Shown in pieces: positions 5,288-41,404 of a stretch of DNA of 41,404 nt (positions within the stretch are counted from its first letter, which is position 1; each line of letters starts with the position of its first letter). Origin of the DNA: Candidatus Lambdaproteobacteria bacterium (lineage in GTDB: Bacteria > SAR324 > JACQKK01); NCBI GenBank assembly GCA_016199125.1, contig JACQHH010000181.1, positions 1 through 41,404 of the forward strand, given 5' to 3'. Both the position numbers and the translations under genes were made by a program. The notes under the pieces are model-generated. The model was not told the DNA's origin. It worked only from the letters and a program-made list of their open reading frames with translations, and did no database searches.

Positions 5288-6159
5288 CAGATGCGCTCGA
5301 TGGGCTTGGTTCCGAACAACCCGTGCGGCCGCGTGAGCAGCACCAGCAGCGCGGCGATGTACGGCGTGATGTCGCGCCATTCGCTGCCCAGCAGGTAGCC
5401 CGTCACGGCTTCGAGCCAGCCGACGATCAACCCGGCCACCAGCACGCCCCCGATGCTGTCCATCCCGCCCAGAATCACCACGGCCAGCACGTTCAGCGCC
5501 ACCAGTCCCAGCGAGGGCGAAAGAGAGTTGATGGACGCCATCAGAATCCCGCTGATGGCGCCGGAGATGGCGGCGATGACCCAGGTCATGGCAAAGATGC
5601 GGTGTACATTGATGCCCATGGCGAACGAGGTGGTCTGGTCGGCCGCGGTGGCACGCAGGGCCACGCCGGCCCGCGAATAGCGAAAGTACAACACCAGCCC
5701 CACCACGACCGCCACCGCCACGGCGAAGGCACGCGCCGTCTTGCCCGGAATGAACAGCTCGCCGAGCATCACGGGGTCCCGCGAAAGAAACGAGGGCATC
5801 TGGTCGGTGTCCGACCCCCAGATGATCGATGCGATGCCGCGCATCATGATGCCCGCGCCGAACGTCACCATCACCAGGGAGATGATGGGCCGGCCCAGCA
5901 TGGGCCGCAGGATCAGCCGTTCCATCACCAGCGCGATGAGGACGGACACGGCGATGGTGACCGCCAGGCCCACCATCCAGTTCCAGCCCATCAGCACGAC
6001 GCACATGAAATACACGTAGGCCGAGACCATCATCATCTCGCCCATGGCGAAATTGAAGGTCTGGCTGGCCTTGAAGATCACGACGAAGCCCAGCGCGATG
6101 AGGGCGTAGACGCCTCCGGCCGCGATGCCCAGCGCTGAATATTCGAGGAAAATCTGCAT
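5287..6159 (-). CDS. livH: Branched-chain amino acid-type ABC transporter permease LivH
   Basis: A 290-residue integral membrane protein matching LivH in length and pattern. MQIFLEYSALGIAAGGVYALIALGF is the typical first helix, followed by FNFAMGEMMM and the cytoplasmic GVALRATAADQTTSFAMGINV coupling loop. The GGMDSIGGVLVAGLIVG segment near the C terminus is also characteristic. It follows livG by 39 bp and overlaps livM by one base. Confidence 0.94.
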   Translation of the reverse strand: MQIFLEYSALGIAAGGVYALIALGFVVIFKASQTFNFAMGEMMMVSAYVYFMCVVLMGWNWMVGLAVTIAVSVLIALVMERLILRPMLGRPIISLVMVTFGAGIMMRGIASIIWGSDTDQMPSFLSRDPVMLGELFIPGKTARAFAVAVAVVVGLVLYFRYSRAGVALRATAADQTTSFAMGINVHRIFAMTWVIAAISGAISGILMASINSLSPSLGLVALNVLAVVILGGMDSIGGVLVAGLIVGWLEAVTGYLLGSEWRDITPYIAALLVLLTRPHGLFGTKPIERI

Positions 6160-35230: not shown

Positions 35231-35926
35231 TCAGGGTGAAGAGTCCTGGGACATCAGCTCCCGCAGCGCGTCCAGGTCGGGAATGAGAAATCCCTCCGGC
35301 GCCGAGTGCACCACGTTGTCCTTGTTCCAGCGGCTCATGATGCGGATCACGGTTTCCACCCGGGCGCCCACCATGCCGGCCACTTCGTTGCGGCTCAGGT
35401 GCACCGGCACCAGCACCCCGCCGTCCTGCTCCCGCCCCATCTCCCGCGCGTAGGTGAGCAGCAACTGGGCGATGCGCGACTGCACGCCGGCCTCCCCCAG
35501 CACCTCCAGCCGATGCCGCAGCGAGCGCACGCGCAGGTTGAGGTCGCGGATGATGGAGCGCGAAACCTCGGGAAAGCGCTCCAGCAGCTCCAGGTACTCC
35601 TTGCGCGCCAGCAGCATCACGCCGGCGTCCGTGCGGGCCACGGCATTGGCCGGGAAATCGTCGCCATTGATCAGCGCCACTTCGCCGAACGCTTCGCCGG
35701 GGCGGATGATGTCCATGATCATCTCACGCCCGGATTCCAGCGCCTTGAACACGGTCACCTCGCCCCTGAGCACGAAATAGAAATGCGTGCACGGATCGCC
35801 CTCGAAGAAGATCGCCTCGCCCTTGCGGTATTCGCGCAGGCTGCTCTGCTGGTGCAGCAGGGCGCGTGCCTTCTCGGAAATCCCTGAAAAGCGGGCGATT
35901 TTCTGGATGATGGCGGGGTCGATCAA
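35231..35926 (-). CDS. Crp/Fnr family transcriptional regulator, Dnr-like
   Basis: A 231-residue activator. The N-terminal cyclic-nucleotide-type beta-roll (about 35-115, with FGEVALINGDDFPANAVA) has no Fnr-type cysteine cluster, so it holds no iron-sulfur cluster. A dimerisation helix follows, then the helix-turn-helix (178-199, SRNEVAGMVGARVETVIRIMSRW). Glu191 and Arg195 match Fnr Glu209 and Arg213, but the Fnr Ser212 position is Ile, which fits operators beginning ATGAC instead of TTGAT. The start is a TTG with AGGA six bases upstream; the ATG at 35998 would place the operator over the start codon. Haem-based NO sensing, as in Dnr, is possible but not visible. Confidence 0.9.
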   Translation of the reverse strand: MIDPAIIQKIARFSGISEKARALLHQQSSLREYRKGEAIFFEGDPCTHFYFVLRGEVTVFKALESGREMIMDIIRPGEAFGEVALINGDDFPANAVARTDAGVMLLARKEYLELLERFPEVSRSIIRDLNLRVRSLRHRLEVLGEAGVQSRIAQLLLTYAREMGREQDGGVLVPVHLSRNEVAGMVGARVETVIRIMSRWNKDNVVHSAPEGFLIPDLDALRELMSQDSSP

Positions 35927-35997
35927 GAGCGATCCTGATGCGGGGGCGGTCCCGGGCGCGGCGGGCGCTGGCGCAGGCGCCGTCCTACCCGCTACCA

Positions 35998-36040
35998 TAT
36001 GACCGATGTCATAGTCGCGGCAACATGGCTATGGCAGAAT
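35998..36040 (+). promoter_or_regulatory. Crp/Fnr-type operator and -10 for the cytochrome b fusion gene
   Basis: TATGAC-CGAT-GTCATA (35998-36013) is a perfect dyad apart from the spacer. CAGAAT at 36035-36040 ends 34.5 bases from the operator centre, exactly as at the DUF2249 promoter. No matching -10 is seen on the minus strand, so the regulator gene itself does not appear to be activated from this site. Confidence 0.65.
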
Positions 36041-36112: not shown

Positions 36113-37714
36113 TTGCAGACGCCCCACACCTATTTCCCCACACGCCCGCCGGCCGCACGGCTGGTGGAGCGGATTTTCAATCCGCTGGACACGCTGTGCA
36201 ACCGTCTCTACGGCTCGCGCTACAATCCGCTCTACCAGAGCGGCACCATCGCCGTGCTGAGCCTGCTGGTGCTGCTGGTGACGGGGCTCTACCTGCTGTG
36301 GTTCTACAAGATCGGAGCCCCCTACGAGTCCGTGACCAACATCGAAGCGCAGTGGTGGGGCGGCCGTTTGATCCGCGCGGTGCACGTGTATGCCGGTGAC
36401 GTCATGATGGTCGCCGTGGCGGTGCACGCGCTGCGCATGGCCCTGCGCGGGCGCACCTGGGGACCGCGGGTGCTGGCCTGGATCAGCGGCGTGGTGCTGG
36501 TGTCCATCGTCATGATGAGCAGCATCACGGGCATGGTGCTGGTGTGGGATGTGCAGGGCCAGTTGCTGGCCATCGAGGGCGCGCGCATGGCGGACACGCT
36601 GCCCATCTTCTCCGAGCCCATCCAGCGCACGTTCATCAGCAGCCAGGGGGTGCCGGCCTCGTTCTTCTTCCTCAACCTGATCCTGCACATGGTGTTTCCC
36701 TTCGCCATCCTGATCGGGCTGTGGGTGCACACGCTGCGCGTGTCGCGGCCGGCGCTGCTGCCGCCGCGCAAGCTGTCGGCGTGGCTGCTGGTGGCCCTGT
36801 TGGGGGTGTCGCTGGCCTATCCGGCGGGCATGCTGCCGCCTGCGGACTACCTGACCATCCTGGGCCGGGTGCCCGTGGACTGGATCAACACGTTCTGGCT
36901 GCTCGTCTCGCGCAACGTGCCGCCGCCGGTGACGCTGCTCAGCGGGCTGGCGCTGTTCCTGTTCCTGGTGAGCGTGCCCTGGTGGTGGAAGCCGCGCCTG
37001 GCGGCGCACCCGGAGCCCGCGCGGGCCAACCCCAACCTGTGTACGGGCTGCACCCAGTGCTACAAGGACTGCCCCTACGGGGCCATCAGCATGGTGCCGG
37101 CGCCGCCCAGCAACCATGCCACGGACATCGTGGCGCTGATCAATCCGGCGCTGTGCGTGAGCTGCGGCATCTGCGCCGGGTCCTGCGGCCCCATGGTCGT
37201 GGGTCCGCCGGGGCGCGTGGGGCGCGACCACCTGCTGGCGGCCCAGCGCCTGATGACCGCCGCGGCCCCCGGCGCCGAGGACATCGTGCTCATGGCCTGC
37301 GAGCAGGGGCTGGGGCTGGAGCCGGTGCTGGCCGGGCTGCCGCACGTGACCGTGCACCGCCTGCACTGCGCCGCCGCCGTGCACACCTCGGCCATGGAAT
37401 ACCTGCTGCGGCGCGGCTGCGGCGGGGTGTACGTGCTGGCCTGTCCGGAGCGCGACTGCGCCTATCGCGAAGGCCCCAGGTGGCTCCGTGAGCGGCTCTA
37501 CGAGGACCGCGAGGCCGAGCTGCAGCCGCGCGTGGACAAGCGCCGCGTGAAGATGGGCGGTTTCGGCCCGGCCGACCTGCCCCAGGCCCTGGCCGACATC
37601 GGCGCGTTCCAGGCGGACATCGCCGCCCTGGCCCACGAGGCCCGTGACGAAGGGGACGTGCAGCTCGAACCCGATTGCGAGCCCATGCCGCTGGCGGAGG
37701 TGGCCCATGGTTAG
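36113..37714 (+). CDS. Cytochrome b / bis-[4Fe-4S] ferredoxin / MvhD-like fusion protein
   Basis: A 533-residue fusion, started by a TTG with GGAG seven bases upstream. Residues 1-290 form a cytochrome b with about six helices. His91/His105 and His192/His206, both 14 apart, match the two haem-ligand pairs of bc1 cytochrome b. Next are two cluster motifs: Cys310, 313, 316, 320 and Cys348, 351, 354, 358. The last part (390-465) resembles MvhD/FrhD, the [2Fe-2S] subunit of hydrogenase-heterodisulfide reductase, with Cys396, 419, 444 and 449. It would pass electrons between quinone and a soluble donor or acceptor. It overlaps the next gene by 8 bp. Confidence 0.88.
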   Translation: MQTPHTYFPTRPPAARLVERIFNPLDTLCNRLYGSRYNPLYQSGTIAVLSLLVLLVTGLYLLWFYKIGAPYESVTNIEAQWWGGRLIRAVHVYAGDVMMVAVAVHALRMALRGRTWGPRVLAWISGVVLVSIVMMSSITGMVLVWDVQGQLLAIEGARMADTLPIFSEPIQRTFISSQGVPASFFFLNLILHMVFPFAILIGLWVHTLRVSRPALLPPRKLSAWLLVALLGVSLAYPAGMLPPADYLTILGRVPVDWINTFWLLVSRNVPPPVTLLSGLALFLFLVSVPWWWKPRLAAHPEPARANPNLCTGCTQCYKDCPYGAISMVPAPPSNHATDIVALINPALCVSCGICAGSCGPMVVGPPGRVGRDHLLAAQRLMTAAAPGAEDIVLMACEQGLGLEPVLAGLPHVTVHRLHCAAAVHTSAMEYLLRRGCGGVYVLACPERDCAYREGPRWLRERLYEDREAELQPRVDKRRVKMGGFGPADLPQALADIGAFQADIAALAHEARDEGDVQLEPDCEPMPLAEVAHG

Positions 37715-38339
37715 GCGCGCGGGACTGTGGGTGCTGCGCTTCGCGGTGCCCGTGCTGGCGCTGCTGGCGCTGGTCTGGGTGGCGCGGCTGCCCATGGGCA
37801 GCGATCCGCGGGATGGCCTGCTGCGCCTGGCCTGGCGCACCGTGGGCGCGCGCATCAAGGTGTGCCGCGACTACACGCCCGCAGAGCTGCAACGCGTTCC
37901 CGCGCACATGCGCGCCCAGCGCATCTGCGCGCAATCGCTGCTGCCCTATCGCGTGCGCGCCAGCGTGGACGGCGTGCCCGTGGTGGATCAGCTCGTGCAA
38001 CCGGCCGGCGTGCGCGGCGACAGGCCGCTGTTCGTGCATCGCGACCTGACCCTGGCGCCGGGCACCCATCGGCTGGCGTTGCACTGGGACCCGGAGCCGG
38101 CCGAGGGCATCGAGGACGCCGCCTTGCGCGACGCCACCCGCGACGCCACCGCCGACGCGTCCCGCTACGCCCTGGAGCGCGAGGTGCGCATCGCCGCGGG
38201 GCGCATCGTCATGATCGAGCTGGACGAAGCGGCGCGCGGATTCCGCGTGATCGGCGAGGGCCAGACCGCCTCCCGCGGCAACCAGGCTCTGTCCGGGAAA
38301 GACGAATCGTCGATTCTTCGGGCCCTGGTGTCATTCTGA
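37707..38339 (+). CDS. Unknown membrane-anchored protein with element-derived C terminus
   Basis: A 210-residue protein with one N-terminal helix (about 8-26) and a periplasmic remainder. I do not recognise it. It has Cys53 and a second Cys about 20 residues later, then a beta-rich region (HRDLTLAPGTHRLALHWDPEP). Translational coupling to the cytochrome b fusion suggests it assists that protein. The codon at 38283 is CAG where the flanking tetranucleotide of the repeat family predicts TAG. The last 18 residues (Gln193-Phe210) are therefore read from repeat copy D1, and the ancestral protein probably ended at residue 192. Confidence 0.75.
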   Translation: MVRRAGLWVLRFAVPVLALLALVWVARLPMGSDPRDGLLRLAWRTVGARIKVCRDYTPAELQRVPAHMRAQRICAQSLLPYRVRASVDGVPVVDQLVQPAGVRGDRPLFVHRDLTLAPGTHRLALHWDPEPAEGIEDAALRDATRDATADASRYALEREVRIAAGRIVMIELDEAARGFRVIGEGQTASRGNQALSGKDESSILRALVSF

Positions 38340-38515: not shown

Positions 38516-38684
38516 CAAGGTTCTATCCGGGAATGGTTGCCGTACCCTTCGAGACGCCGCGCCTGGCGCGGCTCCTCGGGGATACGGCTTTGAAATCACG
38601 AGTGAAACTGAACACCGCGTGGCTGAGGAGAGCCCGCAGGGCGCGTCTCGAAGCCCGCATTTCACATTCTCGGACAGAGCTTAG
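38516..38684. repeat. IS5-like miniature element, copy D2
   Basis: A 161-bp core (38520-38680) nearly identical to copy B. Ends are GTTCTATCCGGGAAT and, from the other strand, GCTCTGTCCGAGAAT. The right flank is TTAG, whose complement CTAA provides the TAA stop of the SCO gene. The left flank CAAG is degenerate. Copies D1 and D2 lie side by side between two convergent genes. Confidence 0.75.
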
Positions 38685-39607
38685 CTGCCGGCGCCGTCCG
38701 CGCGGCGCACCGCCTCCACGATCCAGGAGACTGGCGGATTGTTGAGCGCGTAGACGATCCGCAGGTCGCGGTCCAGCACGAAGACCAGCGGCACGTGGTC
38801 GATGACGCCCGTCCGCTCGTCTCGCCGACGCGCCACGCCGAACTGGTCCAGCACGCGGTTCACCCGCTCCACGTCTCCCGAAAGCATGAGCGTGCGCTCC
38901 GGCAGCTCCCAGTTCCGGCGCAGACCTTCCAACGCCGAGGGCGTGTCGCGCCAGGGATCCATGGTGATCACCACCAGCGCCGGGTTGACCGTGGCGGCCA
39001 GCTCCTTGGCACTGCGCGCCACCGTGCGCAGCACCAGCGGGCACACCGTTTCGCAGTGCCCGAAGCCGAAGGAGACGATCGCCGGGCGCCCGCGCAGGTG
39101 CGCCAGGGACAGCTTGGCCCCGTGCTGATCCACCAGCACAAAGTCCGGGGCCGGACGCTCCAACCGGGGATATCCCGCCGGCAGGGGCGCGATGGACTGG
39201 TTCACCTGCGGACCGCCGGCGCCCAACAGTCCCTGCCCCAGGCGCATGGCCACCCAGCCCGTTTCCAGCACCAGGGCCAGGGCCACCAGCCACATCAGCC
39301 CCATGCCCAGCGGCCGGCGGCCCAGTGCCCGCAGCCCGGCCAGCAGCTCCTGGGTCCAGCCCAGCCACAGCAGCGCCAGCATGCCCAGCGGGCCGGCGAT
39401 CAGCGCGCCCCATCCGTATGGCGCGGGCAGGCCATTGGCCTGGGTGCCGAAGCACACGCTCTGCAGCCGGGCCAGCCACACCGGCGCGGTACCTCCCTGC
39501 GGGGCGAAGGCCAGCCCCCACCAGCTCATGGTCGCGGCCAGCCACAACAGCAGCATCAGCAGCGACAGGTTCGCCCCTGGTGAACTTTTGGCCAAACTAG
39601 CGTTCAA
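38681..39607 (-). CDS. SCO1/SenC family copper protein with N-terminal membrane domain
   Basis: A 308-residue protein. About 125 N-terminal residues carry three transmembrane helices (near 13-35, 65-85, 102-122), much more than the single anchor of ordinary SCO proteins. The thioredoxin-like SCO domain follows: PDFVLVDQHGAKLSLAHLRGRPAIVSFGFGHCETVCP has the copper cysteines Cys185 and Cys189, and His271 in GVIDHVP completes the site. It would deliver copper to the CuA centre of the subunit II encoded nearby. It is divergent from the oxidase genes, with a shared operator between them. Its stop codon lies in the flank of copy D2. Confidence 0.92.
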   Translation of the reverse strand: MNASLAKSSPGANLSLLMLLLWLAATMSWWGLAFAPQGGTAPVWLARLQSVCFGTQANGLPAPYGWGALIAGPLGMLALLWLGWTQELLAGLRALGRRPLGMGLMWLVALALVLETGWVAMRLGQGLLGAGGPQVNQSIAPLPAGYPRLERPAPDFVLVDQHGAKLSLAHLRGRPAIVSFGFGHCETVCPLVLRTVARSAKELAATVNPALVVITMDPWRDTPSALEGLRRNWELPERTLMLSGDVERVNRVLDQFGVARRRDERTGVIDHVPLVFVLDRDLRIVYALNNPPVSWIVEAVRRADGAGS

Positions 39608-39702: not shown

Positions 39703-39772
39703 ATTACGAATGGTGCGCGCCCAGGGGTACATGACAATTGTCATGGCGCCCCCCCTGGCCGCACCGCATGAT
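39703..39772. promoter_or_regulatory. Divergent Crp/Fnr-type operator between SCO and oxidase genes
   Basis: ATGACAATTGTCAT (39731-39744) is a perfect palindrome. On the plus strand CATGAT (39767-39772) and on the minus strand CGTAAT (39708-39703) both end 34.5 bases from its centre, so one site could activate both directions. The spacing equals that of the two other boxes in this cluster. Confidence 0.65.
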
Positions 39773-39843
39773 GCACCTGACCGCTGTGCCGCGCCAGGCG
39801 GCAGGTGTTCGACAATGTCAACCCGCGAATCAAAGGGATAGCC

Positions 39844-40008
39844 ATGAGCGCAAGCCCTGACTCCAGAAACGAGCGAGTGCCGTTCATGCAGCAACTGTTC
39901 GACAGCCCGTTCCTGCTGCTCATTGCCGGGCTGGTGGTGATGTTCATCTTCTTTACGGGCTGGGGATTGGTGGAAATCTTCTCCCTGCCGCCCGCCACAT
40001 TGCCCTGA
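39844..40008 (+). CDS. Small membrane subunit, ba3 oxidase subunit IIa-like
   Basis: A 54-residue peptide with a single transmembrane helix (about 22-46). AGGGA lies six bases before the ATG. Position and size match the subunit IIa of B-family haem-copper enzymes, which replaces the missing first helix of subunit II. The subunit II gene follows after 20 bp. Confidence 0.75.
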   Translation: MSASPDSRNERVPFMQQLFDSPFLLLIAGLVVMFIFFTGWGLVEIFSLPPATLP

Positions 40009-40028
40009 CCGTAAACTAGGAGGCACCA

Positions 40029-40568
40029 ATGCCGATGCATTCGGGTATCGTCTCACCCCAGGGCGTCTGGTGGAAGCCCGTGGGCAAGCAGGAAAAAATC
40101 TGGGTCACCGTGGCCTTCATCTGGTGCATGGTGCTCTTTGCCATGATGCCCTTCTGGCACTTCAAGGGCGGCCAGAACCCCTCCGGCACCCGCAGCCGCG
40201 TGGAGCCGGCAGCCTATTTCGAGCGCGTCAACCGCTTCGTCGAAGACTACAAGGTCGGCGAGGAGAATGGCGTGCCCATCGTGGAACCGCCGCCGGGCAG
40301 CGAGGTGTACCTGTTGGCGCGCATGTGGCAATGGTATCCCATCCTCAAGCTCAAGCAGGGAGCCACCTACACGTTGCACCTCTCGTCGCTGGACCTGAAC
40401 CACGGCTTCAGCCTGTACCCGGTCAACATCAACTTCCAGGTCATCCCGGGCTACGACTATGGGCTGCAGATGACACCCAACCGTTCAGGTGATTTTCGCA
40501 TCGTCTGCAACGAATTCTGTGGGATTGGCCACCACTTGATGGTGGGCAAAGTCCTCGTCGAACCGTAG
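40029..40568 (+). CDS. Haem-copper enzyme subunit II with CuA site (ba3/NorY-type)
   Basis: A 179-residue membrane-anchored cupredoxin with one N-terminal helix (24-43). All CuA ligands are present: His125, Cys160, Glu162 (backbone), Cys164, His168 and Met171 in CNEFCGIGHHLM. It would accept electrons from cytochrome c or cupredoxin and pass them to subunit I. An AGGAGG-like site precedes the ATG. The short single-helix form is usual for B-family enzymes and also for the sNOR subunit NorY. Confidence 0.92.
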   Translation: MPMHSGIVSPQGVWWKPVGKQEKIWVTVAFIWCMVLFAMMPFWHFKGGQNPSGTRSRVEPAAYFERVNRFVEDYKVGEENGVPIVEPPPGSEVYLLARMWQWYPILKLKQGATYTLHLSSLDLNHGFSLYPVNINFQVIPGYDYGLQMTPNRSGDFRIVCNEFCGIGHHLMVGKVLVEP

Positions 40569-40613
40569 TCAACCCTTGCTCCGCAACGGAGCCCCCATTT
40601 CAGGAGGCATTCG

Positions 40614-41404
40614 ATGAGCGTTGCCCAAAGCGCAGCCGCACCAGGCCTGTTCCGCACATGCCCGGTGACGACGCTCAAGATTCACCGCAGCGCCGAAACG
40701 CTGATCAAGGTCAATGCGGTGGTGGCAGTGGTCGCGTTTCTGATCGGCGTCTCTGCCGCCATTCTGCTCGTTTTGACCCGCTGGCAGGTCGTGCACCTGC
40801 TGCCGGCCGACTGGTATTACCGCATCTTGACGGCCCACGGCCTCAACATGCTGATTTTCTTCATCCTGTTCTTCGAGATGGCGGTGCTCTACTTTGCCGG
40901 GCCCGTCCTGCTCAACAGCCGTCTGCCCGCGCCCTGGGCCGGCTGGCTGGCCTTCGGGCTGATGGTGGTGGGGGCCGCGATGGTGGAGGTGATGGTCTTC
41001 ACCGGGCGCGCCGACGTGCTGTTCACCTCATACGTGCCGTTGAAGGCCCATCCCAACTACTACCTGGGGATCATCCTCTTCGCCGTGGGCGCGCTGATCG
41101 TCACGATCCTGTTCCTGGCCACGCTGGTCGTGGCCAAGCGCGAGAAAACCTACACGGGCTCCATGCCGCTGGTGACCTTCGGCGCTCTCACGGCCGATAT
41201 CATCGCGATCGTCACGCTGCTGCACGGCGCGGCCATCTACATCCCCACCTGGCTGTGGTCCATGGGGCTGATGAACGTGGACCCGGAGGTCTACCGCATG
41301 GTGTGGTGGGCCCTGGGTCACGCCTCGCAGCAGATCAACGTGGCCGCCATGGTCTCCATCTGGTACCTCATGGCCGGGTTCACGGTGGGCGGCGTGGTGC
41401 TCAA
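40614..41404 (+). CDS. B-family haem-copper subunit I, NO-reductase-like (partial, cut by window end)
   Basis: 263 codons are present; the rest lies outside. AGGAGG lies six bases before the ATG. LTAHGLNM gives the first haem ligand His75. LFTSYVPLKAHPNYYLG is the B-family signature seen in ba3 oxidases. Helix VI reads WWALGHASQQINVAAM: His236, the CuB ligand, is kept, but residue 240 is Gln where oxygen reductases have the cross-linked Tyr. Loss of that Tyr is a hallmark of NO-reducing members such as sNOR (NorS). The later metal-site histidines are not visible, so oxygen reduction by a variant site is not excluded. Confidence 0.85.
   Translation, partial: MSVAQSAAAPGLFRTCPVTTLKIHRSAETLIKVNAVVAVVAFLIGVSAAILLVLTRWQVVHLLPADWYYRILTAHGLNMLIFFILFFEMAVLYFAGPVLLNSRLPAPWAGWLAFGLMVVGAAMVEVMVFTGRADVLFTSYVPLKAHPNYYLGIILFAVGALIVTILFLATLVVAKREKTYTGSMPLVTFGALTADIIAIVTLLHGAAIYIPTWLWSMGLMNVDPEVYRMVWWALGHASQQINVAAMVSIWYLMAGFTVGGVVL

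Follow-up and report, generated by a model that had tools for sequence, protein, structure and literature searches.

We conclude that the operon at the end of this stretch of DNA (41,404 nucleotides, hereafter the window, which is the entire contig C155 of a 2.98 Mb bin that is 73.5% complete) very probably encodes eNOR, a B-family-derived, CuA-containing haem-copper enzyme in which the active-site tyrosine is replaced by glutamine and which would be expected to reduce nitric oxide (NO). The window enzyme is a new member of a known family and is ordinary as an eNOR. More interesting than its family membership is how tightly it is linked to two partners: a membrane cytochrome b joined to iron-sulfur and MvhD/FlpD-like domains, and a paralogue of subunit I that lacks CuB ligands.

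Gene set and active site of the haem-copper enzyme

The genes that make up the operon, together with the neighbouring chaperone gene, are as follows.

38681-39607, minus strand: SenC/SCO copper chaperone (PF02630, E 1.1e-23), divergently transcribed from the eNOR genes
39805 or 39844-40008, plus strand: one-helix IIa-like peptide of 54-67 aa, with a likely ATG at 39844
40029-40568, plus strand: putative eNOR subunit II with a CuA site, carrying the full CuA motif CNEFCGIGHHLM
40614-41402, plus strand: N-terminal 263 aa of the putative eNOR subunit I (helices I to VI; PF00115, GHASQQIN), cut by the contig end

The subunit I reading frame is open to the contig end and contains SYVPLKAHPNYYLG and, further on, WWALGHASQQINVAAM. 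It matched PF00115 in a domain search (E 2e-26), is 74-78% identical to its nearest relatives, and has B-family oxidases (Aquifex 7deg and Thermus ba3) as its nearest solved structures, in agreement with the B-family placement given in the first-pass annotation of this DNA. The low-spin haem histidine is present in helix II (TAHG). In all true O2 reductases the residue at +4 to the CuB histidine is a tyrosine. Helix VI of the window protein reads GHASQQIN, with the CuB histidine kept and glutamine at +4, exactly as the annotation had read it, and Pfam and NCBI models do, as it had predicted of automated pipelines, annotate the protein as a cytochrome oxidase.

It can be seen from the list that a subunit II with a cupredoxin CuA domain is encoded directly upstream of subunit I, an arrangement that is a criterion for eNOR. 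Across the 50 eNOR loci compared, a subunit II homologue adjoins subunit I in 45, homologues of the IIa-like peptide, which have a common core with PFLLL, are found in 30 to 36, and a SenC/SCO gene is found in 37. The gene set listed in the first-pass annotation (CuA subunit II, IIa-like peptide and SenC) was therefore borne out, with SenC lying just outside the interval that it had marked.

The window carries half of subunit I, and the helix VII and helix X ligands of the enzyme are predicted from its relatives and from a second copy in the bin:

C200:14752-15714, minus strand: C-terminal half of a second putative eNOR subunit I, the contig starting inside the gene

This fragment carries the helix VII HH and the helix X GHFH. 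The ends of contigs C155 and C200 overlap in register by 38 nt, and as this overlap is only 66% identical the two halves were ruled out as parts of a single gene; the bin therefore has either two eNOR genes or fragments of two strains. Directly behind the C200 fragment is a gene for NnrS, a protein of NO metabolism (PF05940, E 5e-56).

Active-site residues, phylogeny and family assignment

Full or near-full sequences of the family were drawn from 37 named loci and nine relatives of the bin. The residues at +3, +4 and +6 after the CuB histidine are Gln, Gln and Asn in the window protein and in 52 of 52 family members, compared with Val, Tyr and Trp in six of six ba3 oxidases, and with a glutamine at +4 in every member this is no chance or sequencing oddity. 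A replacement tyrosine, which the first-pass annotation had suggested looking for, was found at the helix-VI site in none of the 52 family members examined, so that the usual route of O-O cleavage would be missing. The CuB histidine, the helix VII HH and the helix X HxH are kept across the family wherever the column is present, with two Thermus exceptions. Helix X reads GHFK, not GHFH, in L075 and L076, both on Thermus thermophilus plasmids, which puts lysine at the position of the second histidine, a low-spin haem ligand. Two of the four K-channel positions are also kept (the equivalents of Tyr248 and Ser309), and at the other two Tyr244 is changed to Val and Thr312 to His.

In the published residue key, Gln at this site denotes eNOR, Asn sNOR/CuANOR, Asp gNOR, Glu c/qNOR and Tyr an O2 reductase (PMC8756737 Table A4). 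Members of the published eNOR sets come from Thermus and from many Alpha-, Beta-, Gamma- and Deltaproteobacteria (PMC8756737), and an alphaproteobacterial 'ba3-a1' lineage, noted in 2019 as being without the tyrosine (PMC6431628), was renamed eNOR once NO-reductase activity had been reported (PMC8879329). For these reasons we file the window enzyme as a likely eNOR, an assignment resting on the residue key, the link to Thermus and the alphaproteobacteria, and tree topology. It might instead belong to another NO reductase family that has Gln at this site, such as nNOR, for which the published residue table has no entry; however, the published eNOR sets cover the taxa found here, from Thermus to the four proteobacterial classes named above (PMC8756737), and ba3-a1 was itself placed in eNOR (PMC8879329), so that we consider a family of this kind improbable. 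gNOR and bNOR were ruled out by residue, the window enzyme having Gln where gNOR has Asp and bNOR has Asn.

Two maximum-likelihood trees were built, with Thermus standing in for accepted eNOR such as the Rhodothermus enzyme, which has reportedly been tested biochemically. Window subunit I is nested among Gln-bearing enzymes of Thermus, Thermomicrobium and proteobacteria (94/96), and the clade that they form, taken with the CuB-less paralogues, is set apart from, and sister to, the ba3 oxidases (100/98). The window gene thus does not lie inside the oxygen-reducing ba3 oxidases, a placement that the first-pass annotation had named as refuting its reading. The window clade is also far from NorB in the tree, which together with a helix VI that has Gln and not Glu rules out cNOR and qNOR. 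B-family subunit I genes flanked by several c-type cytochromes were seen in L083, L085 and L088 (Burkholderia, Variovorax and Janthinobacterium plasmids); no GH pair was seen at their helix VI, and they form a distinct clade beside ba3.

The first-pass annotation had described the enzyme as a probable sNOR-type NO reductase, and although its description of a tyrosine-less, probable NO reductase stands, the sNOR type does not. sNOR of the norSY-senC type does have a similar set of CuA subunit II, subunit I and SenC (PMC6967387, PMC3772326). As a test of this assignment, amoA-bearing Burkholderiales genomes (with copies typical of ammonia oxidisers) were located and their haem-copper genes gathered. 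Their norY has a CuA norS as its neighbour (with a SenC-like reading frame as well in one genome) and reads GHVFIN or GHVVIN, and so has Asn; the +4 residue of the window enzyme is Gln, where that of sNOR is Asn (PMC8756737), and norSY of these genomes branches as a distant separate clade in the trees (100/100). We conclude that the window enzyme is most unlikely to be an sNOR.

Nitric oxide context and candidate regulation

The surroundings of the window enzyme point to NO metabolism, and NO reduction is its most likely function. NirK is encoded in the same bin, above the curated cut-off, and no cNOR, qNOR or sNOR was detected in this 73.5%-complete bin. An A-family oxidase is also encoded there, so a need for NO respiration cannot be argued from an absence of oxidases. 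When 58 relatives were compared, full-length nirS was confined to genomes with eNOR, being present in five out of 10, whereas the other 48 genomes had none (P = 5e-5, ignoring kinship), and NirS or NirK was present in eight of the 10 against five of the 48 (P = 3e-5, again ignoring kinship). At least seven loci have NirS as a neighbour of eNOR (L023, L031, L047, L070, L122, L245 and L254). Of these, scored with a d1-domain HMM, five are among the 50 loci and two are Burkholderiales regions; the same HMM ruled out the neighbour cluster 'c2' as pure NirS, since it is mixed with other cytochromes. Rrf2 and DUF542 genes adjoin the Thermus eNOR copies.

Three features of the window may bear on regulation.

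35231-35998, minus strand: CRP/FNR-family regulator (PF00027, PF13545)
35999-36012, no strand: palindrome ATGACCGATGTCAT, the second of two, between the CRP/FNR regulator and the cytochrome b gene
39731-39744, no strand: perfect palindrome ATGACAATTGTCAT in the eNOR/SenC intergenic region, a candidate operator for a CRP/FNR-type NO-responsive regulator

The same ATGAC-N4-GTCAT palindrome is found upstream of eNOR in L025, L048, L064, L067 and L044. Related loci totalling 301 kb contain eight copies of this 14-mer, most of them in front of eNOR operons, whereas base-shuffled sequence contains 0.1. The shorter TGAC-N4-GTCA occurs four times in the window where 0.5 would be expected, and the canonical FNR box TTGAY-N4-RTCAA showed no significant excess. 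Two of the ATGAC-N4-GTCAT palindromes in the window thus sit at the promoters of eNOR and of the cytochrome b gene, and a third is present at 5576-5589. A CRP/FNR-family regulator is encoded in 11 of the 50 eNOR loci, and the most natural candidate to bind the palindromes would be a NO sensor of the CRP/FNR type.

A CRP/FNR-like regulator would also fit low oxygen, and the B-family fold, the CuA site and the cytochrome oxidase annotation by Pfam and NCBI models are likewise what would be seen if the enzyme were a ba3-kind, high-affinity O2 reductase that manages without the helix-VI tyrosine, as has been argued for the N. europaea 'sNOR' (PMC6967387). However, the tyrosine is replaced in every family member, the clade excludes all Tyr-bearing ba3 enzymes, nirS is confined to eNOR genomes among the relatives, and the family is linked to NnrS and to Rrf2/DUF542. 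We therefore regard O2 reduction as an unlikely principal role, and favour eNOR.

Electrons would reach an eNOR of this kind from a periplasmic donor, such as reduced cytochrome c, and run through CuA and the low-spin haem to the haem/CuB centre, where two NO would be joined to give N2O and H2O. Protons would probably come from the cytoplasm via a putative remnant of the B-family K-channel. With the tyrosine absent, O-O cleavage would lack a donor of the fourth electron/proton, and O2 reduction would be poor or secondary.

Partner proteins and comparison with known systems

The two partners, with the one-helix protein that overlaps the first of them, are encoded at the following positions.

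36113-37714, plus strand: membrane cytochrome b fused to two [4Fe-4S] centres and an MvhD/FlpD-like domain, a candidate dedicated electron donor
37644-38339, plus strand: one-helix protein, which about ten relatives carry as a C-terminal fusion to the cytochrome b protein
C159:1243-2646 (L005, L132), minus strand: CuB-less eNOR paralogue, in the window's bin but away from the eNOR contigs
L038:3694-5235, L126:5850-7271, L122:9666-11087 and 27 Burkholderiales regions: other copies of the CuB-less paralogue

Profile comparison matched the modules of the cytochrome b protein to solved cytochrome b6, HdrA and MvhD chains. Within its family, four histidines (91, 105, 192 and 206) are invariant, and eight ferredoxin cysteines and four MvhD cysteines (396, 419, 444 and 449) are invariant or nearly so. 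In the predicted model of the protein (pLDDT 89), the membrane portion matches cytochrome b of bc1/b6f.

The gene for this protein is linked to eNOR in 41 of the 50 loci, several of the exceptions being short or truncated. Full-length homologues are present in exactly the 10 eNOR genomes of the 58 relatives (P = 2e-11, ignoring kinship), in two of them on another contig than eNOR, and the co-occurrence also holds within each of two families, at P = 0.008 in one and 6e-6 in the other. An independent sample of 399 Burkholderiales genomes gave 28 regions around full-length matches; eNOR lies within about 10 kb in 25 of these, and the remaining three, which lack eNOR, are cut by contig ends. The Burkholderiales also have a second eNOR-near cytochrome b, to which reductase domains (2Fe-2S, FAD and NAD-binding) are fused (L231:6627-8612 and similar loci). 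Both cytochrome b architectures point to a cytoplasmic source of electrons, which the cytochrome b/Fe-S/MvhD protein probably hands on to eNOR or to its quinol pool. The presumed direction of flow would be towards eNOR, with quinone, a cytochrome c or eNOR itself as the candidate partner.

The CuB-less paralogue forms the sister clade of eNOR (100/98), and its predicted model resembles ba3 subunit I. Helix VI reads GGGHxxQ, and in 39 of 39 paralogues the helix II, helix VI and both helix X histidines are kept while both helix VII CuB ligands are missing, so that it should hold two haems and no CuB. An HH pair present in 13 of the 39 was ruled out as CuB ligands, as it lies outside helix VII and is unconserved. 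The paralogue occurs in seven of the 10 eNOR relatives, was not found in the other 48, and adjoins the cytochrome b gene in 27 of the 28 Burkholderiales regions. Possible roles are electron transfer, NO binding or assembly.

A tentative reading, for which we would claim rather less than an even chance, is that eNOR is the terminal part of an undescribed dedicated NO-reducing system, in which the cytochrome b/ferredoxin/MvhD protein would draw on a cytoplasmic carrier, the two-haem paralogue would act as an electron-transfer, NO-binding or assembly subunit and, in the Burkholderiales, the second cytochrome b with its 2Fe-2S/FAD/NAD(P)H reductase would assist. Were this so, NO reduction would be tied to cytoplasmic reductant and not only to cytochrome c. 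The partner genes provide a testable hypothesis on the electron supply of eNOR. They are also good markers, since among the 58 relatives every eNOR genome, and no other, has the full-length cytochrome b/Fe-S/MvhD gene. Members of this family go under the name of cytochrome oxidases ('cbb3-type' or 'b(o/a)3-type' oxidase in the plasmid records), and N2O-producing organisms are missed as a result. The cytochrome b/FlpD domain combination is given in a single record of one table in PMC8756737; we found no description of the cytochrome b/Fe-S/MvhD partner or the CuB-less paralogue in the literature searched, and they may be described beyond it.

The closest known system is eNOR itself ('ba3-a1' of Degli Esposti; Hemp/Murali; Thermus, Chloroflexi and alphaproteobacteria), which shares with the window the Gln-for-Tyr replacement, the upstream CuA subunit II, a nearby SCO, the NirK/NirS context and B-family ancestry. 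The window differs in its new organism, in having half of subunit I, in the linked cytochrome b/Fe-S/MvhD protein and in the CuB-less paralogue in the bin. The ba3-type O2 reductase of Thermus thermophilus and haloarchaea has in common the fold, the haem and CuB ligands, CuA, the IIa-like peptide and the SYxPLKxHxxxYLG region, but has the tyrosine, forms a separate clade and keeps K-channel Tyr244 and Thr312, which are changed in the window family. The norSY-senC sNOR of ammonia oxidisers likewise has CuA subunit II, subunit I and SenC and a Tyr-less helix VI, but with Asn in place of Gln and in a distant clade. Finally, cytochrome b6, the C-terminal Fe-S part of HdrA and MvhD have their three modules and the His/Cys ligands in common with the 36113-37714 protein, which differs in that the modules are fused in one membrane protein that is tied to eNOR.
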